Under the pieces are notes generated by a model. The model worked only from the letters and a program-made list of their open reading frames with translations. It made no database searches and was not told the DNA's origin. A stretch of 36,367 nt of DNA from Lachnospiraceae bacterium. Lineage in GTDB: Bacteria > Bacillota > Clostridia > Lachnospirales > Lachnospiraceae. A program made the position numbers and the translations under genes. Below are positions 2,302 to 20,370 of the stretch, one piece after another. The DNA lies in contig JAAWAV010000047.1 in the NCBI GenBank assembly GCA_022792335.1, forward strand, positions 1 through 36,367, in the 5' to 3' direction. The stretch's first letter is position 1. The number at the start of each line of letters is the position of its first letter.

Positions 2302-4185
2302 TTATGCAGTCCTCTCGAACTGACTGTTGTAGAGTTCCGCATAGAATCCCTGTTTCTTAAGCAATTCCTCGTGAGTCCCCTGCTCGATGATATCGCCATC
2401 TTTCATAACCAGAATCAGGTCCGCGTCTCGAATGGTGGAGAGTCGATGGGCAATGACAAAGCTGGTCCGCCCTCTCATCAGGTTATCCATGGCCTTTTGA
2501 ATCCGCTCCTCCGTTCTGGTATCTACAGAGCTGGTTGCCTCATCCAGGATCAGAATCTTATTGTCTGCCAGAATGGCTCTGGCGATGGTAAGAAGCTGTT
2601 TTTGCCCCTGGGACACATTCCCCGCCTCTTCATTTAGCTCCAGATTATAACCATCCGGCAAGGTAGAGATAAAATGATGGGCATGAGCCGCCTTTGCCGC
2701 GGCAATGACCTCCTCGTCGGTGGCATCCAATTTTCCGTAACGGATATTTTCCATAATAGAACCTTTAAAAAGCCAGGTATCCTGAAGGACCATACCAAAA
2801 AGTTCTCGAAGCTCACTCCGGTTGAAGGAACGGATATCTTTCCCATCAATTCGGATCGCTCCGCCATTCACATCGTAAAACCGCATCAGAAGTTTCACCA
2901 GCGTCGTCTTGCCTGCGCCGGTGGGACCGACAATGGCGATCTTCTTTCCAGCTGAAATCTCGGCGCTAAAATCGTTGATGATCATCTTGTCCGGTCGGTA
3001 GCCAAATTTCACATGGTCAAAGGTCACGTTCCCCTCAATCCCTGTAAGAGAAGCCGGATGTTCTACACTCTGGTCCTCTTCTTCCTCCTCCAGAAATTCA
3101 AAAACACGTTCTGCTGCTGCCGCCGTAGACTGAAGCAGGTTGGACACCTGGGCCATCTGAGCAATCGGCTGGGTAAAGTTTCTCACATACTGGATAAAGG
3201 ACTGGATATCTCCCACCTGAATCCGCCCGCGGATAGTCAGAAAACCTCCTACAATCGCCACGGCCACATACCCAAGGTTTCCCACAAACTGCATGACCGG
3301 CTGCATCATACCGGAGAAAAACTGGGATTTCCATGCAGACTGATACAGGATCTGGTTGGTCTCATTAAATTCCCGAAGGACCGCTTCTTCTCGGTTGAAT
3401 ACTTTGATGACTGTATGGCCACCGTAATTTTCTTCCACCTGACCATTAACCTTCCCCAGATATTCCTGCTGCTGTCGGAAAAACCGCTGGGAACGTTTGA
3501 TAATAAAGGAAATCATTCCCATGGAGATCGGAAGAATGAGAAGAGCGAGCACCGTCATCAGAGGACTGATGGAAAGCATCATGACAAACACGCCGATAAT
3601 CGTCGTCACCGAAGTGATCATCTGAGTAATACTCTGGTTCAGGCTCTGCCCCAAAGTATCCACGTCATTGGTAATCCTGGAAAGCACTTCCCCGTGGGTC
3701 TTGGTATCATAATAGTTCATGGGAAGCCGGTTGATCTTTTCTGACATTTCCTTCCTCATACGGAAGCTCACCTTCTGTGAAATCGTCGTCATCGTCAACC
3801 CCTGAGCGAAACCGCACAGGGCGCTTATGCCGTAAAGCACCAAGAGCGTGAAAAGAATCCTCCCAATGGCAGAAAAATCAATACCGGGACCTCCGGAAAG
3901 CTTTCCAGTCAGTCCAGTAAAAATCTCTGTGGTCGCCCTTCCAAGAATTTTCGGTCCAACCACATGAAACACCGTACTCGCTACCGCGAAAACAAGGACC
4001 GTCAAAATCCCCCATTTATAGCGCCCCATATAGGCAATCAGCTTCTTCATGGTCTTTCCAAAGTTTTTAGCCTTCTCCCCACTTCCGCCTGCGGGGCCGC
4101 CGTGTCCTCCCATGCCTCCCCTTCGCATCCCGGGAGCAGCATGTTGCCCTTCCTGTTTCGGAGTTTTTTTCGTCTCGTTATACAT
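2302..4185 (-). CDS. ABC exporter half-transporter, catalytic-type subunit
   Basis: One half of a heterodimeric ABC exporter (membrane domain about residues 45-345, ATPase about 385-620). Walker A GPTGAGKT is at 420-427, Walker B ILILDE at 544-549 with the catalytic Glu549, and the switch His at 580. The signature is VSQGQ (524-528) instead of LSGGQ. The N-terminus has a Gly/Met-rich cytoplasmic stretch (about 18-37). I chose the ATG at 4185 because AGGAGG lies 9 bases upstream; a GTG at 4209 lacks this. It overlaps the upstream half-transporter gene by 8 nt (ATGTATAA), so translation is probably coupled. The partner is the gene at 4178-6406 and the regulator is the MarR gene ahead of it. Substrate unknown; drug or peptide export is usual for MarR-linked pairs of this family. 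Confidence 0.93.
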   Translation of the reverse strand: MYNETKKTPKQEGQHAAPGMRRGGMGGHGGPAGGSGEKAKNFGKTMKKLIAYMGRYKWGILTVLVFAVASTVFHVVGPKILGRATTEIFTGLTGKLSGGPGIDFSAIGRILFTLLVLYGISALCGFAQGLTMTTISQKVSFRMRKEMSEKINRLPMNYYDTKTHGEVLSRITNDVDTLGQSLNQSITQMITSVTTIIGVFVMMLSISPLMTVLALLILPISMGMISFIIKRSQRFFRQQQEYLGKVNGQVEENYGGHTVIKVFNREEAVLREFNETNQILYQSAWKSQFFSGMMQPVMQFVGNLGYVAVAIVGGFLTIRGRIQVGDIQSFIQYVRNFTQPIAQMAQVSNLLQSTAAAAERVFEFLEEEEEDQSVEHPASLTGIEGNVTFDHVKFGYRPDKMIINDFSAEISAGKKIAIVGPTGAGKTTLVKLLMRFYDVNGGAIRIDGKDIRSFNRSELRELFGMVLQDTWLFKGSIMENIRYGKLDATDEEVIAAAKAAHAHHFISTLPDGYNLELNEEAGNVSQGQKQLLTIARAILADNKILILDEATSSVDTRTEERIQKAMDNLMRGRTSFVIAHRLSTIRDADLILVMKDGDIIEQGTHEELLKKQGFYAELYNSQFERTA

Positions 4186-6406
4186 GTCCAAGCTCCTCCT
4201 TTCCTTCACTCCCGATTACGCTTTTCTCTTCCGACTTTCCGGTAAGCTCCTCTTCCGAGAGCTGAGAACCTGCAATCTGCCGATAGACCTCGCAGTTCTT
4301 AAGAAGCTCCTCGTGGGTCCCCTTTCCCGCAATTCGTCCTTCATCCAGTACGATAATCTGCTCCGCATGAAGGATAGTGCTGACTCTCTGGGCCACCACC
4401 AGCTTTGTGCTGCCCGCCGCATATTCGTTCAGAGCCTTTCTGAGGGTTGCATCCGTCTTAAAATCCAGAGCAGAAAAGCTGTCGTCAAACACATAGATGT
4501 TGGGCTTTTTTGCCACAGCACGGGCGATGGAGAGGCGTTGCTTCTGCCCGCCAGATACATTGGCGCCGCCCTGGGCAATGTGGCTTTCATACTTCTCCGG
4601 CTTTTCTTCTACAAAATCTGCTGCCTGGGCAATGGTGGCTGCCTCCCGAATCTCATCCTCATCTGCATCCCGTCTGCCAAATCTTAAATTAGAAGCAATG
4701 GTCCCGGAGAAAAGTACGCCCTTTTGAGGTACGAAGCCAATCTGTTCTCTGAGTTCCTGAATGGACAGCTCCCGTATATCCACGCCATCCACAGTAATCG
4801 AACCCTCCGTCACATCGTAAAGTCTGGGCAGAAGATTTACCAACGTGGATTTTCCGCTTCCCGTACTTCCGATAAAAGCCGTCGTCTCTCCTGGCTTTGC
4901 CGTAAAGGTAATATCATGGAGCACATCATTTCCTGCGCCGGGATACCGGAAAGAAACATGGTTAAATTCCACAATACCTTTTGCATCCTTTGGAAGAGGG
5001 ATGGGGGACGCCTTTTCCTCAATGGAAACTTTTGTCGTCAATACCTCATCAATACGGTTCGCCGCCACAGCTGCTCTCGGCAGCATAATCGATACCATGG
5101 TAATCATCAAGAACGCCATGACAATCTGCATGGTATAGGTAATGAAAGCCATCATATCGCCTACCTGGAGATTCCCCCCTTCAATCCCGTGGGCGCCGGT
5201 CCAGATGATGAGTACTGTAATCCCGTTCATAATAAACATCATGGCAGGCATCATAAAGGACATGCACCGGTTGGTAAAGAGCATCGTCCTTGTCAAATCC
5301 CGGTTGGCCGCGTCAAACCGCGCTTCCTCATGTTTTTCTCTGCTGAATGCCCGGATCACAGGCAGGCCGGTTAAGATCTCCCTGGCCACCAAATTAACCC
5401 GGTCCACCAGTTTCTGCATCAGTTTAAACTTCGGCATAGCCACCGCCATGAGTATGACCACCAGACAGCTCACCGCCAATACAGCCACTCCAATGATCCA
5501 GGCCATGGAAGCGCCGGACCGGATCACTTTAAAGAGGCCGCCAATACCGATAATAGGAGCATATAGCACCATCCGCAAAAGAAGCACCGTCACAAGCTGG
5601 ACCTGTTGGATATCATTGGTACTCCTGGTAATCAGAGAAGAAGTAGAAAATCGGTCCATCTCCCCGCCGGAAAAGGAAATCACTTTCCGGAACACCTGGC
5701 CCCTCAGCCGCATACCGACGGAGGCCGCCACTTTGGAGGCTATCAGACAGACCAAAACACTGGCTGCCATGGCAAGAAGGGCAATTCCCAACATTTTAAG
5801 GCCGGAAAAAAACAGATAATCTGTCTGAAGTTTCTTTAAGTCTACGCCGATGACCTCATATTCTGCTTTCACGTAAGCTGTTCCAAGCTGACTTAACATG
5901 GAGTCGGAAAGAGCCTCTGTCTGAGTAGTAAGCTCCGCCATGATTCCCGCCGCCATTTCTGGGGAAAGTTCTGAAACTTCTAGTCCCATTTGCCTGGCCA
6001 TCATAAATCCTGCCTCCGCCCGGCTTAAAATCTCGTTCAGCTCCTTAAGCGCCTCATCAGATAGCTTTTTTCTTATTAACAGGGGCTCTTCCCCGACCGC
6101 TGGATACTGCCTCCTGTAACGGACATATTCTTCTTCAGAAAAGTTTTCTGTGGACAACAATTGATAGGAGCCCTCTACTGTCTGCCTTTCTCCATCCTCC
6201 AGAAACAGAAACAGATTTTCCATTTCCGCCTGTCGAATGGCTTCCGGCACCCCGTGGGCAATCCCGCCCTGCTGAATCCCCACGTCTACAATGTCTGACG
6301 TATATTGTGGAAGGGACAGGTCACAATACGCCTGCAATCCCAGAAGCATCAGAATAAGAAGCGCCCAGCCCGTCGATTGCCTGAGATATTTCAAAATCTT
6401 TCCCAT
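4178..6406 (-). CDS. ABC exporter half-transporter, degenerate-site subunit
   Basis: The second half of the heterodimeric exporter, 742 residues. Walker A GSTGSGKST is at 513-521 and the signature VSGGQ at 617-621 is near canonical. The Walker B region reads VFDD, placing Asp642 where the catalytic Glu belongs, and the switch His is replaced by Gln673 (VAQR). These are the changes known from the degenerate-site subunit of heterodimeric exporters such as TM287/TM288. Between the first and second membrane helices there is an insertion of roughly 150 residues (about 45-195), rich in charged residues and helical in character, expected outside the membrane. AGGAG lies 10 bases before the ATG. The gene follows marR by 59 nt in the same transcript. 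Confidence 0.92.
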   Translation of the reverse strand: MGKILKYLRQSTGWALLILMLLGLQAYCDLSLPQYTSDIVDVGIQQGGIAHGVPEAIRQAEMENLFLFLEDGERQTVEGSYQLLSTENFSEEEYVRYRRQYPAVGEEPLLIRKKLSDEALKELNEILSRAEAGFMMARQMGLEVSELSPEMAAGIMAELTTQTEALSDSMLSQLGTAYVKAEYEVIGVDLKKLQTDYLFFSGLKMLGIALLAMAASVLVCLIASKVAASVGMRLRGQVFRKVISFSGGEMDRFSTSSLITRSTNDIQQVQLVTVLLLRMVLYAPIIGIGGLFKVIRSGASMAWIIGVAVLAVSCLVVILMAVAMPKFKLMQKLVDRVNLVAREILTGLPVIRAFSREKHEEARFDAANRDLTRTMLFTNRCMSFMMPAMMFIMNGITVLIIWTGAHGIEGGNLQVGDMMAFITYTMQIVMAFLMITMVSIMLPRAAVAANRIDEVLTTKVSIEEKASPIPLPKDAKGIVEFNHVSFRYPGAGNDVLHDITFTAKPGETTAFIGSTGSGKSTLVNLLPRLYDVTEGSITVDGVDIRELSIQELREQIGFVPQKGVLFSGTIASNLRFGRRDADEDEIREAATIAQAADFVEEKPEKYESHIAQGGANVSGGQKQRLSIARAVAKKPNIYVFDDSFSALDFKTDATLRKALNEYAAGSTKLVVAQRVSTILHAEQIIVLDEGRIAGKGTHEELLKNCEVYRQIAGSQLSEEELTGKSEEKSVIGSEGKEELGHV

Positions 6407-6465
6407 ACTTGTCGTTCTCCTTTAAGTCTCTTTAAACTGTCTTATTTTCCATTCTTTTTTTCAAT

Positions 6466-12541: not shown

Positions 12542-13021
12542 ATGGAAAAAATCGCCAGCTTTACTGTAAATCATTTAACTCTGCTCCCAGGTCTCTACGT
12601 TTCCCGTAAGGACCATGTAGGCGACAACGTTATTACCACCTTTGACATTCGTATGACCCGTCCCAATTATGAGCCGGTCATGAACACAGCAGAGCTTCAT
12701 ACTATTGAACACCTGGGAGCTACTTTCCTTCGAAATCATCCCGTTTATGGAGATAAAACCATTTACTTCGGCCCCATGGGCTGTCGGACCGGCTGTTATC
12801 TTCTGCTGTCTGGCGACTATGAGTCAAAAGACATTGTTCCTCTTATGAAGGAAATGTTCTCTTTTATCCGGGATTTTAGTAGCGAGGTGCCGGGAGCCAG
12901 GGCCAGAGATTGCGGAAACTATATGGACCTGAATCTGCCCATGGCCAATTATTTGGCGGATCGTTATCTGAGAGAAGTTCTGGAGAATATCGGGGAAGAA
13001 CGCCTGATTTATCCGGAATAA
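12542..13021 (+). CDS. luxS: S-ribosylhomocysteine lyase (LuxS, autoinducer-2 synthesis)
   Basis: Cleaves S-ribosylhomocysteine to homocysteine and the AI-2 precursor DPD in the activated methyl cycle. The 159 residues are full length. Metal ligands are visible as His53 and His57 in the HTIEH motif and Cys124 in RDCGNY; Cys81 in MGCRTG and Glu56 are the expected catalytic residues. AAAGGA lies 8 bases before the ATG. The gene stands alone: no pfs/mtnN or methionine gene adjoins it. A 125-nt leader with an inverted-repeat element precedes it. I see no convincing terminator in 13022-13177; a short CCCA...TGGG match there lacks a T-run. Confidence 0.96.
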   Translation: MEKIASFTVNHLTLLPGLYVSRKDHVGDNVITTFDIRMTRPNYEPVMNTAELHTIEHLGATFLRNHPVYGDKTIYFGPMGCRTGCYLLLSGDYESKDIVPLMKEMFSFIRDFSSEVPGARARDCGNYMDLNLPMANYLADRYLREVLENIGEERLIYPE

Positions 13022-13177: not shown

Positions 13178-13885
13178 TCAGCCAAACAGAATGTAGTCCA
13201 GGAAGGCTAAAAGGGACAGGTGGACTGGGTAAAAGAAATAAAAAAAGTATTTCTGTACCAGGGCGCCTGCTCTCTTTTTGGGAGTTTTTCCGCCTTTTTC
13301 TCCGTTGTAGAAAAAGATCAGAGGCAGGGCCGCCAGAGCATAAATTTCCAGGCCGCCCATAAATACTATGACCAGAGCAGTGCTTATATACATGGCCATG
13401 GGCCTGAAGCGGAAAAAATAGAACAGATAGATCATCAGCACGCCTTCCGCCCCATAGTCGCAGTGAATGACATAGGCCAGGCACAGCATGGAGACCACGG
13501 TCATGATGGCATAGATGGGCTGAGTGTTCGCCAGGAACCGATTATATAAATATAGGAGCAGAAGGCCGATGAACAGGGTGAAAAACACATTCTGGTAATC
13601 CGGATGCCAAAAGCGGCGAAACACCACCAGATCAAAGGGAATCTCCGAGAGCAGAGCAAATATTCCAAGGCGGATCAGATATTTTTTCACGTCTCTGGTA
13701 TGGTAAAACCCTTCCACCAAAAGGAAGCAAAAGATCGGGAACGCCAGCCTCCCGATGATACGCATCGCCGTCCATATCTCCCTGGAAACACCAGCTGAAA
13801 GTACGATTCCCAGATGATCGATGAACATCGTCATAACAGCGATCCACTTCAACATCCTGCCGCTTAAAAATTTTTTCTGCTCCAT
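13178..13885 (-). CDS. TraX-family integral membrane protein
   Basis: A 235-residue polytopic protein with the TraX pattern: a first helix KWIAVMTMFIDHLGIV, RLAFPIFCFLLVEGFYHTRDVKKYLIRLGIFALLSEIPFDL, and a C-terminal FFYPVHLSLLAFLDYIL. TraX of F plasmid acetylates pilin; chromosomal homologues in Clostridia are not linked to conjugation and belong to the wider acyltransferase-like membrane group. No other conjugation gene is present here, so a pilin role is unlikely. The FYPVHL motif near the end fits an acyltransferase-like fold. GAGGA lies about 9 bases before the ATG. It is the last gene of the xth operon, 24 nt behind the GlgX-like gene. Confidence 0.85.
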   Translation of the reverse strand: MEQKKFLSGRMLKWIAVMTMFIDHLGIVLSAGVSREIWTAMRIIGRLAFPIFCFLLVEGFYHTRDVKKYLIRLGIFALLSEIPFDLVVFRRFWHPDYQNVFFTLFIGLLLLYLYNRFLANTQPIYAIMTVVSMLCLAYVIHCDYGAEGVLMIYLFYFFRFRPMAMYISTALVIVFMGGLEIYALAALPLIFFYNGEKGGKTPKKRAGALVQKYFFYFFYPVHLSLLAFLDYILFG

Positions 13886-13909: not shown

Positions 13910-15778
13910 CTATTTTTCTGCTTTCGAATCCTTTGTTTCTTTTCTTACTACAGCCTTTTCTGTGGTTCTGCCTTTTTTGTTCGTCAGGCTGGCCTCTTCT
14001 TTTTTCTTTCTGTCGGAAAGAAGCACCACGATGCTCCTGGCCTCCAATTCAAAGGTCTCCTGGTTCTCTAAAAGCTCCGGCTCGTCAAAGACCCCGTTTT
14101 TGTCCTCTCTGGAGGTATCCACCACCAGACGCCATGCTCCCTCCCCATGAGGAATGGAGAAGGTATGAGGTTCCCAGTGCATATTGAGCATCAGGTAGAT
14201 ATCCCCGTCCTCTGCATACCTCCCACTGTAATAAAATCCAAGCTGTCTCCGGTATGCCTCGTACTGAGGATACCAAGGCGACACCCCGTGGACAGAAAAA
14301 TCTGGACATCCTGTCCCCAGATAATCCATTCCTTTCAGTCCTCCCTCTTTGTGAAGCATCGGATGAGCCTTCCGGAACTGAAGCATATGGCTGGCAAACT
14401 GGAACACATCCTCTCCAAATTTTCCTCCTTTCCAGTTCACCCAACCGGTAGGATTGTCCTGACAGTAGGCGTTGTTATTCCCATCCTGGGAATTTCCACA
14501 TTCATCTCCAGCCAAAATGAGAGGGATTCCCTGGGACATCGTAAGCAGGACCCAGGCGTTCCGGAGCTGTTTTTTCCGAAGTTCCAGGATCCGTTTTTTC
14601 CGCACAGGCCCTTCTGCGCCGCAGTTCCAACTATGATTGTAATCCGATCCGTCTCTTCCGTTCTCTCCGTTGGCTTCGTTGTGCTTCCGGTCATAGGAGA
14701 CCATGTCCGCCATGGTAAATCCGTTGGTATTCGCCATAAAATTGACCTTACCGACAGCCCCCCCATCTTCTTTCATCTGGTATGCCGCCAACTGAAGCAT
14801 ATCCTCGTCTCCTTTTAGCAGGCGGCGCATATCTGTCTGGAAGTCCTCCCGGTAACAGGCCAGATGGCGATTTCTGTCTGAGACTCCGGTACAAAAGTCT
14901 CCGGCAAACAGTTTCACTCTGGCAAGGGCCGGATCGGCAGCAGCCGCCCGGCTGTCAAAGTTCCCGGAAAGGTGAATACCGTCCACATGGTATTCCCGTA
15001 CCCAGTGTCGTAAACAGGCAAGCTGAAGCGGTGTTCCCATGTCCGGCCCAAAATAGAGCTCCACAGCAAGCTCCATCCCATTTTCGTGAAATGCCTTTAC
15101 CAGCTTCTTGAACTGAATATCCGGAGACTCTTCTTTTCCCCCCTTTACACAGTAAGAGGCTTTCGGCGCAAAGCAGTAGGCTGGGCCGTAGCCCCAGTAA
15201 TTGATCCGTCCCCCCTCTCCTCCTTCTGCAAATTCATCCGGTACCATAAGTTCTACCATGGTAACGCCCAATTCTTTCAGATAAGGAATCTTTTCCTGGA
15301 TTCCAGCAAAGGTTCCCTTGTTTTTTACGCCGGAAGAGGGATGCTTCGTAAACCCTCTCACATGAAGCCGATAGAGAACGGTGTTTTCAAAGGAGTAGTC
15401 CGGTGATTGATCGAGCCCCCAGTCGAAGCCCTCTTTCAAAAAACCATATCGAATCGGCCCCCCTGGCTCTCCCCACTTCTCCCGCCCCGTCACCACCGCC
15501 GCGCATAGATCCCGGACAGGAGCGCCGTCTACGGAAAGACTGTATTCGTATGCCGCTGGGTCAAAGCCGGAAAGAGTCACGTACCGTATATTCCCAAGCC
15601 TGCACTCTTTGGGGAAGGCGAACACTCCAGCCTCCTGTTCCCTCCCCTTCTTATATAAATGAAATCTGGCTGTTCCCTCCACCTCTGATATAAAAGACAC
15701 ATATACGCTGCCCCCTTCCACCCTGGTTCCCAGGGGAAGCGGCCTGGCCCCCGAAGCCTCTGCTTTTATTTTACCCAC
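13910..15778 (-). CDS. GlgX-like GH13 protein lacking all catalytic residues (pseudoenzyme)
   Basis: A 622-residue protein with clear overall similarity to glycogen debranching enzyme GlgX: an N-terminal CBM48-like region, WGYGP at about 195-199, the strongly conserved KHNEANGENGRDG (365-377) and AGDECGNSQDGNNNAYCQDN (423-442). Yet every GH13 active-site signature is changed. Region I DxVxNH reads VELYFG; region II FRFD reads IHLS (Ser271 for the nucleophile Asp); region III AEPW reads AGDF (Gly293 for the acid/base Glu); region IV AHDG reads NTNG (Asn352 for the third Asp). It should not hydrolyse glucan; binding or regulation is possible. I chose the GTG at 15778 because a perfect AAGGAGG lies 6 bases upstream; ATG codons at 15796 and 15886 lack one. 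The tail is Lys/Glu-rich. It follows the Uup-like gene by 31 nt. Confidence 0.88.
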   Translation of the reverse strand: MGKIKAEASGARPLPLGTRVEGGSVYVSFISEVEGTARFHLYKKGREQEAGVFAFPKECRLGNIRYVTLSGFDPAAYEYSLSVDGAPVRDLCAAVVTGREKWGEPGGPIRYGFLKEGFDWGLDQSPDYSFENTVLYRLHVRGFTKHPSSGVKNKGTFAGIQEKIPYLKELGVTMVELMVPDEFAEGGEGGRINYWGYGPAYCFAPKASYCVKGGKEESPDIQFKKLVKAFHENGMELAVELYFGPDMGTPLQLACLRHWVREYHVDGIHLSGNFDSRAAAADPALARVKLFAGDFCTGVSDRNRHLACYREDFQTDMRRLLKGDEDMLQLAAYQMKEDGGAVGKVNFMANTNGFTMADMVSYDRKHNEANGENGRDGSDYNHSWNCGAEGPVRKKRILELRKKQLRNAWVLLTMSQGIPLILAGDECGNSQDGNNNAYCQDNPTGWVNWKGGKFGEDVFQFASHMLQFRKAHPMLHKEGGLKGMDYLGTGCPDFSVHGVSPWYPQYEAYRRQLGFYYSGRYAEDGDIYLMLNMHWEPHTFSIPHGEGAWRLVVDTSREDKNGVFDEPELLENQETFELEARSIVVLLSDRKKKEEASLTNKKGRTTEKAVVRKETKDSKAEK

Positions 15779-15809
15779 GCTTTTCCTCCTTGTCATTACG
15801 CCAAAGCGT

Positions 15810-17750
15810 TCATCCTGCTGTCTCTCCTGCTGCAATCTTTTCTGCCAGCTCTTCCAGGTACATCCACCGTTCCATTTTTTCTTCAAGAGTCGTTTCCAAC
15901 TTCCTCTTTTCTTCCATCAGTTGGTTTAAAGCAGTATAATCCGACGCTACTTCTTCAATCGCAGCCTCTTTTTCTGAGACTGCCTCTTCCAATAAACGGA
16001 TTTCTTCTTCTATCGTCTCGAAGTCCCGCTGTTCCTGATAGGTAAATTTTAATTTTCTAGGCCGCGTATTCTGCTTCCGGCCTTCTTTTCGCCCCTCAGA
16101 GGCCCTGTTAGACTCCTGGACTCCTTCTGAAACCGACGGGAGGTTCGTCTCCTCTATCCCCTGACGCTTTTTTAAAGCCGCCTCATAATCCGTATAGCCG
16201 CCCTCATACTGGCGAAGCCTTCCATTTTCTTCAAAAGCAAAGATTCGACGGACCACCCGGTCCAGGAAATAACGATCATGGGATACGGCTATGACAATAC
16301 CTGGAAACTGATCCAGGTAGTCTTCCAGAATCATCAAAGTCCTGATATCCAGATCATTGGTGGGCTCGTCCAGGAGCAGCACGTTAGGCGCTTCCATTAA
16401 AATTCGAAGAAGATACAGACGCCTTCGTTCTCCACCAGATAACCGTCCGACGGTCGTATATTGAAGATCCGGAGGGAATAGAAACCGCTCCAGCATTTTG
16501 GAAGCGCTCACGCTTCCATCCTCTGTCGTCACATACTCTGCCACATTCCGGATATAGTCGATGACTTTGAGACTCTGATCCATGGATTCATTTTCCTGAG
16601 AAAAGTAGCCCAACTTTACAGTCTGACCCAGGACTACTTCTCCGGAATCGGCCGTACAAATTCCCATGATCAGTTTCATCAGCGTAGATTTTCCGCAGCC
16701 GTTTGGACCTGAAATTCCCACCCGGTCGTTTTTTAAAAACGTGTAGGAAAAATCCCGAATCAGCCTCTTCTCTCCGTAAGCCTTTGAGAGATCGTGAAGT
16801 TCCACCGTCGTCTTTCCCAACCTGCTTTTGACGGATCCGAGTGTGATTGTCTCGTCTACTTCCGGCCCCTTTCTGTCCCGGAGTTCTTCGTAGCGTCGAA
16901 TATGAGCTTTCTGCTTGGTGGACCTGGCCCTGGCTCCCCGCATCATCCATAAAAGCTCCTTCCGAAGGAGACTTTGCCGTTTCCGTTCCGACGCCTGAGC
17001 CATATTTTCCCGCTCCGCTTTTAGTTCTAAAAATTCAGAATATCCACCTGGATAACCGTACAGCTTTCCCCGGCTAAGCTCTACAATCCGGTTGCAGACA
17101 CTGTCCAGAAAATACCGGTCGTGAGTCACCATGACCAACGCACCCTTATATCGTTTCAGATATTCTTCCAGCCATCCGGCCATCCCACTGTCCAGATGGT
17201 TGGTAGGTTCGTCCAGAACCAGTATGTCCGCCTCTGACAGAAGCGCCGCCGCCAGGGCCGCCCGTTTTCTCTGTCCGCCGGAAAGCTCTCCCATGGGCTG
17301 TAAGAAATCTGGCATTCCCAGAGTATTTAACATGGCCTTGGCCTGGCTTTCCAAGTCCCAGTGCTCCTTTTCCCTAACCTCGCCCGTATTCCAGGCCCTC
17401 CCAGAACGTTCAGGCACGCCCCTACTCCAAACGCTCCCGGAAACGCCAGAGTGTTCAGAACTGTCAAAACTTTCGGAAAGTCCGGAAAGCACTGAGGCAA
17501 GTACCGACTTCGTCCCGTCAAAGGCCGGCGTCTGGGGCAGATAGCAGAAAGTCAACCCATTCCCTCGAACCACACTGCCCTGATCCGGTTCGCAAAGCCC
17601 CGCAATCATCTTTAAGAGCGTACTTTTCCCGGTCCCATTGATTCCGATGAGCCCCACTTTTTCCCCCGTCCCAAGGGAAAAAGAGGCGTTGTCGAAGAGA
17701 AGTCGCTCCGTGTAGGACTTGGTTATATGCTCCATGGTCAACAAATTCAT
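15810..17750 (-). CDS. ABC-F ATPase, Uup-like with C-terminal coiled coil
   Basis: A 646-residue tandem ATPase without membrane domain; ABC-F proteins act on the ribosome as translation factors. First cassette: Walker [10 protein letters not shown] 36-44, LSGGQ 156-160, DEPTNHLD 181-187. Second: GPNGCGKS 348-355, LSGGE 437-441, DEPTNDLD 461-468. The linker (about 240-295) is rich in Arg and Lys. The C-terminal part (about 563-640) is a long coiled coil as in Uup, which binds DNA/ribosome. A Ser/Gly/Arg-rich stretch at about 91-130 is inserted in the first cassette between Walker A and signature. The start at 17750 overlaps the xth stop by 4 nt (ATGA), so translation is probably coupled. It is unlikely to be a drug-resistance ABC-F given the Uup features. 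Confidence 0.9.
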
Positions 17751-18508
17751 AGGTCGATCAAAAGCTCCACGGGACAGTGATCGGAACCTACAACTTCCGT
17801 ATGAATGGCCGCACCAGCCAACCGTTCTTTTAATCCCTCGGAAACACAAAAATAATCAATACGCCATCCGGCATTTTTCTCTCTCGCTTTAAACCGGTAG
17901 GACCACCAGGAGTAAATCCCCTCCTGATCCGGATAAAAGTAACGAAATGTATCAATAAAACCAGCTTCCAATAATGCTGTAAATTTCCCCCGCTCCTCTT
18001 CTGTAAAACCGGCATTTTTCCGGTTATTCTTCGGATTTTTCAAATCGATTTCTTTGTGAGCCACATTCAGGTCTCCGCAAATGATCACCGGTTTTTTATG
18101 CTCCAGCTCCTTTAAATAACCAAGAAATGCATCCTCCCATTCCATCCGGTAAGGAAGTCTCGCAAGCTCATTTTGAGAATTGGGCGTATAGCAGGTTACC
18201 AAATAGCAGGTCGGGTATTCCAGGGTAATGACTCTGCCTTCTTTGTCATGTTCTTCTTTTCCCATGCCATAGAAAACAGAAAGGGGCACTTCTTTTGTAA
18301 AGATTGCCGTTCCAGAATAGCCTTTCTTTTCCGCATAATTCCAGTACTGATGATAGCCCTCCAAGGGAAGTTCAATCTGTCCTTCCTGGAGCTTCGTTTC
18401 CTGGAGGCAGAACACGTCTGCGTTCGCTTCTTTGAAATACGTTTCAAATCCTTTGGTCACACAGGCCCTGAGGCCGTTGACATTCCAGGATATCATTTTT
18501 TTTACCAT
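17747..18508 (-). CDS. xth: Exodeoxyribonuclease III (AP endonuclease, EEP family)
   Basis: DNA repair nuclease that incises abasic sites and removes 3' blocks. All active-site residues of the ExoIII family are in place in the 253-residue chain: SWNVNG (7-12), LQETK with Glu37, Tyr107 in CYTPN, Asp146 and Asn148 in GDLN, and the terminal GSDHCPV with Asp243 and His244. The ATG at 18508 has GGAGG 7 bases upstream; upstream in-frame codons only add a hydrophobic stretch that lies in the promoter. It leads a four-gene operon: xth, Uup-like ABC-F, GlgX-like protein, traX. Confidence 0.95.
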
Positions 18509-18527
18509 ATTTTTTCCTCCAGTTTTT

Positions 18528-18556
18528 ATTATAAACGATAGGAAGAGCACGTTCAA
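18528..18556 (-). promoter_or_regulatory. Promoter of the xth operon
   Basis: Minus-strand TTGAAC (18551-18556), 17-nt spacer and a consensus TATAAT (18528-18533), 20 bases before the xth start. Confidence 0.8.
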
Positions 18557-18643
18557 GAAAAAATACAAATCTGTTTTTCATCATACCACAGCAAAAGTGC
18601 CGCAGGCAATGAAAAAATCAGAGTCCTCCTAAGGAAATTTCAC

Positions 18644-18729: not shown

Positions 18730-20370
18730 ATGATAAGTGCAAATAACATCACGCTTCGCATTGGAAAAAAGGCGCTTTTCGAGGATGTGAATATCAAATT
18801 TACGGAAGGAAACTGTTATGGTCTCATCGGGGCCAACGGTGCAGGAAAATCTACGTTTTTAAAAATTCTGTCCGGACAGTTGGAATCTACCAAAGGAGAC
18901 ATTGCCATTACCCCCGGCCAGAGGCTTTCTTTTCTGCAACAGGACCATTTCAAATATGACGACTGCGTGGTCTTAGATACGGTCATGATGGGAAATCCCC
19001 GCCTGGTAGAAATCATGAAGGAGAAAGACGCCATTTACGCCAAACCTGACTTTTCCGACGAGGACGGCATCCGGGCGGCGGACCTGGAGGCAGAATTTGC
19101 TAATATGAATGGCTGGGAAGCGGAGTCTGACGCCGCCACCCTCTTAAACGGTCTGGGAATCGGCCCGGAACTTCACTACTCTCTCATGAAAGATCTGGTT
19201 GGCAATGACAAAGTAAAAGTCCTCCTGGCCCAGGCTCTTTTCGGAAATCCGGATATCCTGCTTCTCGACGAGCCCACCAACCATCTGGATCTGGATGCCA
19301 TCGCCTGGTTGGAAGAGTTTTTAATCAATTTCGATAATACGGTGATCGTGGTTTCCCACGACCGGTACTTCCTCAATAAAGTCTGTACCCATATTGCAGA
19401 TATCGACTATGCGAAGATTCAGCTTTATGCCGGAAATTATGATTTCTGGTATGAATCCAGCCAGTTGATGATCAAACAGATGAAAGAGGCCAACAAGAAA
19501 AAAGAGGAAAAGATCAAAGAATTACAGGAATTTATCCAGCGTTTTTCTGCCAACGCCTCAAAATCGAAACAGGCTACCTCCAGAAAGCGCGCGCTGGAGA
19601 AAATCCAGTTGGACGAAATCAAACCCTCCAGCCGGAAATATCCCTATATTGATTTCCGGCCCGAACGGGAGATCGGAAATGAAGTCCTGGTGGTGGAAAA
19701 CCTCTCCAAAACGGTGGATGGCGTCAAAGTCTTAGACAATCTCTCCTTTATTCTCGGCCGCAACGACAAGGTTGCTTTCGTCGGCTCTGATGAGATCGCC
19801 AAGACCACCCTGTTCCAGATTCTCTCCGGAGAACTGGAGCCAGACGAAGGTACCTATAAGTGGGGCATCACTACCTCACAGGCCTATTTTGCCAAAGACA
19901 ATACCAAAGAATTTGACAATGACCTTACCATTGTGGACTGGCTCACCCAGTTCTCTCCGGTAAAAGACGTAACCTATGTCCGTGGCTTCCTGGGACGGAT
20001 GCTTTTTGCCGGAGACGACGGTGTAAAGAAAGTAAAAGTCCTCTCCGGAGGTGAGAAGGTCCGCTGTCAGCTCTCCAAGATGATGATACAGGCCACCAAT
20101 ACTCTGATTCTGGATGAACCTACCAACCACCTGGACATGGAGTCCATCACCGCCTTAAACAATGCCCTGATCAAATATCCTGGCGTGGTACTCTTCTCCT
20201 GTCACGACCATCAGTTTGTTCAGACCACAGCCAACCGGATTATGGAACTCACCCCCGGCGGTCTCATTGATAAGATTACCACTTACGACGAGTATCTGGA
20301 AAGTGACGAGATGGCCAGGAAACGTCAGAAGAGCTACAGCCTCTCCGCTTCCGACGCCGAGGACAATTAG
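18730..20370 (+). CDS. ykpA: ABC-F ATPase of the YkpA/YbiT group
   Basis: A 546-residue tandem ATPase that aligns end to end, from memory, with B. subtilis YkpA (NIKFTxGNCYGLIGANGAGKSTFLK, KPDFSDEDGIRAA, NYDFWYESSQL). The first Walker A is intact (34-42) with DEPTNHLD at 180-187, but the first signature reads LVGND (156-160). The second Walker A is degenerate, GSDEIAKT (352-359), with two Gly replaced, while the second signature LSGGE (438-442) and DEPTNHLD (462-469) are normal. This asymmetry is also known in YkpA and is not damage. ABC-F proteins of this group are ribosome-associated factors, not exporters. AAAGGA lies 7 bases before the ATG. The gene is transcribed away from xth and is followed by an inverted-repeat element and a terminator. 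Confidence 0.93.
   Translation: MISANNITLRIGKKALFEDVNIKFTEGNCYGLIGANGAGKSTFLKILSGQLESTKGDIAITPGQRLSFLQQDHFKYDDCVVLDTVMMGNPRLVEIMKEKDAIYAKPDFSDEDGIRAADLEAEFANMNGWEAESDAATLLNGLGIGPELHYSLMKDLVGNDKVKVLLAQALFGNPDILLLDEPTNHLDLDAIAWLEEFLINFDNTVIVVSHDRYFLNKVCTHIADIDYAKIQLYAGNYDFWYESSQLMIKQMKEANKKKEEKIKELQEFIQRFSANASKSKQATSRKRALEKIQLDEIKPSSRKYPYIDFRPEREIGNEVLVVENLSKTVDGVKVLDNLSFILGRNDKVAFVGSDEIAKTTLFQILSGELEPDEGTYKWGITTSQAYFAKDNTKEFDNDLTIVDWLTQFSPVKDVTYVRGFLGRMLFAGDDGVKKVKVLSGGEKVRCQLSKMMIQATNTLILDEPTNHLDMESITALNNALIKYPGVVLFSCHDHQFVQTTANRIMELTPGGLIDKITTYDEYLESDEMARKRQKSYSLSASDAEDN

Follow-up and report, generated by a model that had tools for sequence, protein, structure and literature searches.

The window analysed here, the whole 36,367-nucleotide stretch of contig JAAWAV010000047.1 from a Lachnospiraceae bacterium, carries on its minus strand a GlgX-like gene that lies between genes for a TraX-family protein and an ABC-F ATPase, with an exodeoxyribonuclease III gene and a second, divergent ABC-F gene farther upstream (Table 1). 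The initial annotation credited the GlgX-like gene with an open frame and a good ribosome-binding site, and both are present; all 622 codons are open and the sequence AAGGAGG stands 6 nt from the GTG start codon. The last 30 residues of its product (window 13913-14002) form a charged, lysine-rich, low-confidence tail that is absent from many aligned relatives. A gene for LuxS (S-ribosylhomocysteine lyase) is located nearby at window 12542-13021, and LuxS is the direct downstream neighbour, on the other strand, of the corresponding gene in loci L016 and L133.

Table 1. The GlgX-like gene, its neighbours and its diagnostic residues (positions in the window; counts refer to the 98 aligned members of the non-catalytic clade unless stated; contact numbering is that of Streptomyces venezuelae GlgX)
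Feature	Position	Strand	Remarks
Non-catalytic GlgX-like protein, CDS	13910..15778	(-)	GTG start; 622 aa plus stop; aligned with 18 relatives
Shine-Dalgarno AAGGAGG	15785..15791	(-)	6 nt before the GTG at 15778; read directly
TraX-family (PF05857) protein	13178..13885	(-)	24 bp downstream of the GlgX-like gene, same strand
ABC-F ATPase (ribo_prot_ABC_F)	15810..17849	(-)	31 bp upstream of the GlgX-like gene; 453 bits, cut-off 380; coordinates are those of the longest frame, true start probably further in
Exodeoxyribonuclease III (ExoIII)	17747..18568	(-)	upstream of the ABC-F gene, same strand
Second ABC-F gene, PRK15064 type	18730-20370	divergent	upstream of ExoIII
W195-G196-Y197 (contacts Trp222 and Tyr224)	15188..15196	(-)	W in 98/98; Y in 86/98, F in the other 12
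G244-P245 for region I Asn-His	15044..15049	(-)	region I His kept in 0/98
S271 for region II nucleophile Asp	14966..14968	(-)	Asp kept in 2/98
G293 for region III acid/base Glu	14900..14902	(-)	Glu kept in 19/98
N352 for region IV Asp	14723..14725	(-)	Asp kept in 16/98
Motif KHNEANGENGRDGSDYNHSWNCGAEG (365-390), E372 = contact Glu470	14609..14686	(-)	E in 98/98, against 43/64 in GlgX
Motif GDECGNSQDGNNNAYCQDN (424-442), N436 = Asn534, Y438 = Tyr536	14453..14509	(-)	N in 98/98; Y in 95/98, W in the other 3
D485..GxPDxSxHGxxxW502 motif	14273..14326	(-)	nearly invariant in the clade; more variable or gapped in GlgX

Against the NCBIfam GlgX model TIGR02100 the window protein scores 288.8 bits (E 7e-86), below the equivalog cut-off of 640.9, a value that is also missed by 23 of the 58 genomes counted below as GlgX-positive, and against the Pfam Alpha-amylase model it scores 25 bits, just over the cut-off of 22. 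Among proteins of solved structure, those closest to it in sequence are isoamylase 1, S. venezuelae GlgX and TreX, and its GH13_11 fold is predicted to be intact over the full length, from the N- to the C-terminal domain. It resembles GlgX and TreX (CAZy GH13_11, TIGR02100) in the whole of this predicted fold, in the GlgX motifs and in the acarbose contacts outside the catalytic centre; unlike them, it and its clade lack the catalytic triad, the region I NH and a block of 44 residues, and have a stricter D..GxPDxSxHGxxxW motif. The window genome has a GlgX of its own, a separate protein of 741 amino acids that is encoded on a different contig and has all of the catalytic residues.

The initial annotation had read Ser271, Gly293 and Asn352 in place of the three catalytic carboxylates and the region I NH as lost, and alignment with E. 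coli GlgX and 63 further GlgX proteins gives the same reading at every position. The alignment contains 98 distinct sequences of the non-catalytic clade, including that of the window, and 64 GlgX sequences, 62 of them in addition to those of E. coli and the window genome itself; the clade sequences are uneven in origin, with 26 contributed by one genus and 10 by the genus of the window, and the 436 amino acid sequence of locus L187 was left out. None of the three carboxylates is kept in 65 of the 98 clade members, one in 29, two in 4 and three in 0, and the 62 members outside the two heavily sampled genera divide similarly (none in 43, one in 16, two in 3). At the region I NH and the three carboxylate sites, 63 of the 64 GlgX sequences read N, H, D, E and D, the 64th being gapped at region IV. 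With no clade member having all three carboxylates and 63 of 64 GlgX proteins complete, the loss of the catalytic residues is not due to chance. There is also a deletion in the same part of the protein: a segment between regions I and II, numbered 317-360 in the GlgX of the same genome, has no counterpart in the window protein just after G244-P245, and the interval that separates the P245 and W259 columns of the alignment is 12-14 residues long in 98/98 clade members and 57-62 in 64/64 GlgX. Thirteen short forms (568-609 aa; loci L142, L143, L145, L190-L193 and L195-L200), three of them within the alignment and ten among 15 further genomes that were read, lack region III as well, so that stretch is dispensable for the protein's role.

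A first scan of the collection, of which the best 80 of at least 597 loci were considered, contained 18 relatives that belong to the non-catalytic clade; nine of these carry a family name, in all cases Lachnospiraceae, and another is titled Eubacterium sp. Within the window's family the non-catalytic gene is present in 161 of 200 genomes (199 genera), as against a GlgX match in 58 of the same 200. The 161 carriers are 146 genomes with one unbroken match and 15 with split or partial matches that proved to be of this type when read; the 98 sequences and the 15 further genomes were read residue by residue, and the other carriers among the 146 were classed by a match that runs without interruption over profile positions 263/264, close to which GlgX matches break. 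The 39 non-carriers include incomplete genomes, and G004, G048 and G053 have GlgX only. All 11 genomes of the window's genus have the non-catalytic gene (one as a partial match), whereas only 6 of them have a full two-stretch GlgX match, with a fragment in G529; in another genus it is found in 26 of 31 genomes and in 16/16 of those of good quality. Outside the window's family no match at E 1e-125 was found in a class search (196 genomes, at least 6 of them of the same family; 4 matches) or an order search (146 genomes, at least 15 of the same family; 13 matches), the family assignment being that among the genomes listed, beyond which lie 172 and 113 further genomes without a match.

The split between the 98 clade members and the 64 GlgX has a FastTree support of 1.0, and that between 22 clade members and the 64 GlgX a UFBoot value of 100. 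Two low clade support values, 0.535 and 47, were labels displaced by rerooting and were set aside, since the split itself reads 1.0 and 100. When the tree is rooted on E. coli GlgX the non-catalytic clade nests inside GlgX, although the support labels for this nesting are unsafe after rerooting. A Nei-Gojobori script gave dN/dS values of 0.05-0.23 for those listed pairs in which dS exceeded 0.4 (pairs were listed if dS was below 1.6 or if they included the window, and many are near saturation); the window compared with its nearest relative gave 0.09. For the same 15 species pairs of the window's genus, dN of the non-catalytic gene is 1.1-2.3 times that of GlgX, and the purifying selection on it is therefore somewhat weaker than on GlgX but of the same order. 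The plain reading of these sequence comparisons is one origin followed by constraint. A gene decaying in the window genome only, which the lost catalytic residues taken singly could have indicated, has practically no probability left; it is refuted by the 161 carriers in one clade, the dN/dS range and the open frame. The losses are common to the relatives, and the earlier proposal of a maintained pseudoenzyme as opposed to a decaying gene is supported.

The glycogen genes of the same 200 genomes were counted at E 1e-100 for GlgX, GlgB and type I pullulanase and at 1e-60 for GlgA. At these thresholds GlgX is found in 58 genomes (35 over the curated cut-off; counted by score, mostly not residue by residue), type I pullulanase in 49, GlgA in 194 and GlgB in 192; most of the searches scored 5-8 candidates per genome, so a GlgX or pullulanase may have been missed in places. 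GlgB is present in 161/161 carriers and 31/39 non-carriers (p 1e-6, kinship ignored), an association that depends on 8 genomes without GlgB, 4 of which are less than 90% complete, in a set of genomes that are not independent by descent; the GlgB-less genomes that are at least 90% complete (G053, G073, G075 and G089) have GlgA and lack the non-catalytic gene. GlgA is present in 159/161 carriers and 35/39 non-carriers (p 0.014, kinship ignored). Since GlgA is found in 35 and GlgB in 31 of the 39 non-carriers, branched glycogen in itself does not require the non-catalytic protein. Partnership with type I pullulanase was also considered, and no association was found over the 200 family genomes (Fisher p 0.68).

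The association with GlgX bears on whether the protein might be a dedicated partner subunit of catalytic GlgX, related to it as plant ISA2 is to ISA1, in a heteromer whose dead subunit tunes the choice of substrate. The non-catalytic gene occurs in 55/58 GlgX genomes and in 106/142 others (Fisher p 7e-4, kinship ignored), in G126 (locus L236, G126:C6:58000-77900) GlgX, an ABC-F gene and the non-catalytic gene stand in a row on one strand, and ISA2 is described as a non-catalytic paralogue within ISA1/ISA2 complexes in PMC12510319. Yet no GlgX match at E 1e-100 was obtained in 106 of the 161 carriers, 77 of which also lack a match to type I pullulanase, and the window's genus keeps the non-catalytic gene throughout with a full GlgX match in little more than half of its genomes, so that we consider such a dedicated partnership improbable. 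For the same reason regulation of a true debranching enzyme, which the initial annotation had offered as one possible function, does not stand as a general role. In locus L237 (G133) the two GlgX-like genes are found about 2 kb apart in opposite directions.

S. venezuelae GlgX contacts acarbose through residues that include Trp222, Tyr224, Glu470, Asn534, Tyr536 and Arg212, according to PMC9530166. Five contacts outside the catalytic centre, W195, Y197, E372, N436 and Y438 of the window protein, are kept by alignment in 86-98 of the 98 clade members (Arg212 is not counted in this tally), and the non-catalytic clade retains 53 of the 123 invariant GlgX columns at a level of 90% or more. The initial annotation's suggestion that the protein could bind glycogen or another glucan thus receives indirect support. 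The motifs that hold the kept contacts may be conserved for folding, which counts against reading them as signs of glucan binding. Several acidic residues are nearly invariant in the clade, with D485 and D493 peculiar to it, and together with the absence of any GlgX or type I pullulanase match from 77 carriers this could point to an active enzyme whose catalytic residues have moved elsewhere. We regard that as very improbable: in the predicted model D485 and D493 are placed behind the final helix of the barrel, within the clade-specific motif, the other strict acidic residues (E372, D376, E389, D425 and D441) are common to GlgX, none of the strict acidic residues occupies the position of the nucleophile, and 98/98 members lack the 44 residues that follow region I, with region III also absent from the 13 short forms.

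Neighbouring genes were surveyed in 45 loci, that is, 54 less duplicates, loci without the gene and three with too low a score or a partial gene. The gene directly upstream on the same strand has an ABC-F label in 19/45 loci (the cluster so labelled also took in other ABC ATPases, for example that at window 2305-6421); the other 26 upstream neighbours are ExoIII in 7, on the same strand, DUF1292 in 7, on the other strand, and various genes in 12. Directly downstream, on the same strand, are TraX in 13/45 and DUF5662 in 11/45. Because the ABC-F cluster label included other ABC ATPases, upstream genes were scanned; 20 upstream genes with the label were listed, one of them twice (L137 = L221), and 10 were scanned along with the window's own. 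All 11 are ABC-F proteins, 7 ribosomal-protection-like and 4 of the PRK15064 type, the latter being the immediate upstream neighbours of the non-catalytic gene in L031, L052, L137 and L227. A glycogen operon around the gene was sought in 33 loci (34 minus one unclustered) and then in the 45, and housekeeping genes were found there instead. The regular neighbours in the loci examined are housekeeping and not glycogen genes, which counts against a role in glycogen metabolism. At least 11 genomes (G117, G134, G121, G189, G039, G119, G127, G161, G044, G110 and G193) have a long-frame GlgB gene (about 750-910 aa) within 20 kb of the non-catalytic gene and on the same strand; this proximity was given no weight, as the order and the intervening genes differ and the genomes are related.

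The initial annotation had also suggested regulation of the co-operonic factors, for which the ABC-F protein encoded directly upstream in 19/45 loci would be the candidate. The upstream gene raises the question of whether the protein is no longer involved with glycogen and instead acts together with the ABC-F ATPase, perhaps as a factor linked to the ribosome or to stress, its kept motifs being structural. Besides its frequency in the survey, the ABC-F neighbour is kept although its subtype differs between loci, and the window has both types; both may, however, simply be old residents of the region, and a different neighbour is found in 26/45 loci. A departure from glycogen also agrees poorly with the kept glucan contacts, with E372 being stricter in the clade than in GlgX, and with GlgB in every carrier, and we think it unlikely.

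We favour, with a probability only a little above one half (about 0.55), the reading that the product of the gene derives from the glycogen debranching enzyme GlgX, has the GH13_11 fold and is non-catalytic, a protein that belongs to the GlgX family by descent, is by its residues no GlgX enzyme, and would act as a branched-glucan-binding protein of glycogen metabolism. A dead enzyme is retained by most of the genera sampled in the family, usually without GlgX, and therefore the protein probably still grips branched glycogen and has a job other than cutting it. We infer both the glucan binding and the partner from sequence comparison. The remaining cleft would hold alpha-glucan chains near the branch points of glycogen without cutting them, and the protein would act by its presence, as a glycogen-bound scaffold, a branch-point cap or a recruiting subunit for glycogen enzymes; its likeliest functional neighbour would be GlgB. 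A more far-reaching and quite tentative proposal is that a debranching hydrolase was converted, within the Lachnospiraceae, into a glycogen lectin or scaffold. Such a non-catalytic protein, specific to the family, would recognise branched glucan and function in the absence of any active GlgX, an enzyme that it would have replaced or outlived in the majority of genera; together with GlgB it would determine the architecture or turnover of glycogen, and its expression would be tied to an ABC-F translation factor.

Plant ISA2 is likewise of non-catalytic GH13_11 descent, with its catalytic residues lost and the protein kept lineage-wide, and we assume that the clade arose separately from it. ISA2 is described in complexes with active ISA1, in contrast to the clade, where a GlgX match is present in only 55/161 carriers, so the likeness would be one of analogy, minus ISA2's defining partner. 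The same article ties ISA complexes to several glucan-binding sites and calls the role of the non-catalytic isoamylase ISA2 not understood (PMC12510319). The clade is then a second setting for asking what non-catalytic isoamylases do, including where no active partner is present. GlgD, an inactive protein that is described as modulating its active homologue GlgC in glycogen synthesis of Firmicutes (PMC9093745), is similar in being an activity-less protein of glycogen metabolism in the same phylum, but it belongs to a different protein family and pathway step and acts in GlgC/GlgD enzymes. S. venezuelae GlgX is reported to be active and regulated by c-di-GMP (PMC9530166), and in its activity is unlike the non-catalytic clade. 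The only inactive enzyme isoform among the places examined in PMC11046441 is in a table on archaea, and a review of 2023 refers to two glgX homologues in Blautia obeum (PMC10395257). No description of the non-catalytic clade was found among the titles and abstract openings listed in searches of the open PMC literature.

The Lachnospiraceae rank among the main families of the mammalian gut, and in this family, where glycogen synthase is present in 194/200 genomes, the dead GlgX outnumbers the live one. Automatic counts of "glgX" or "alpha-amylase" genes in these bacteria may therefore be wrong. We note that, of the 189 genomes in which GlgA and GlgB occur together, 97 gave no match to GlgX or to type I pullulanase at the thresholds used here.
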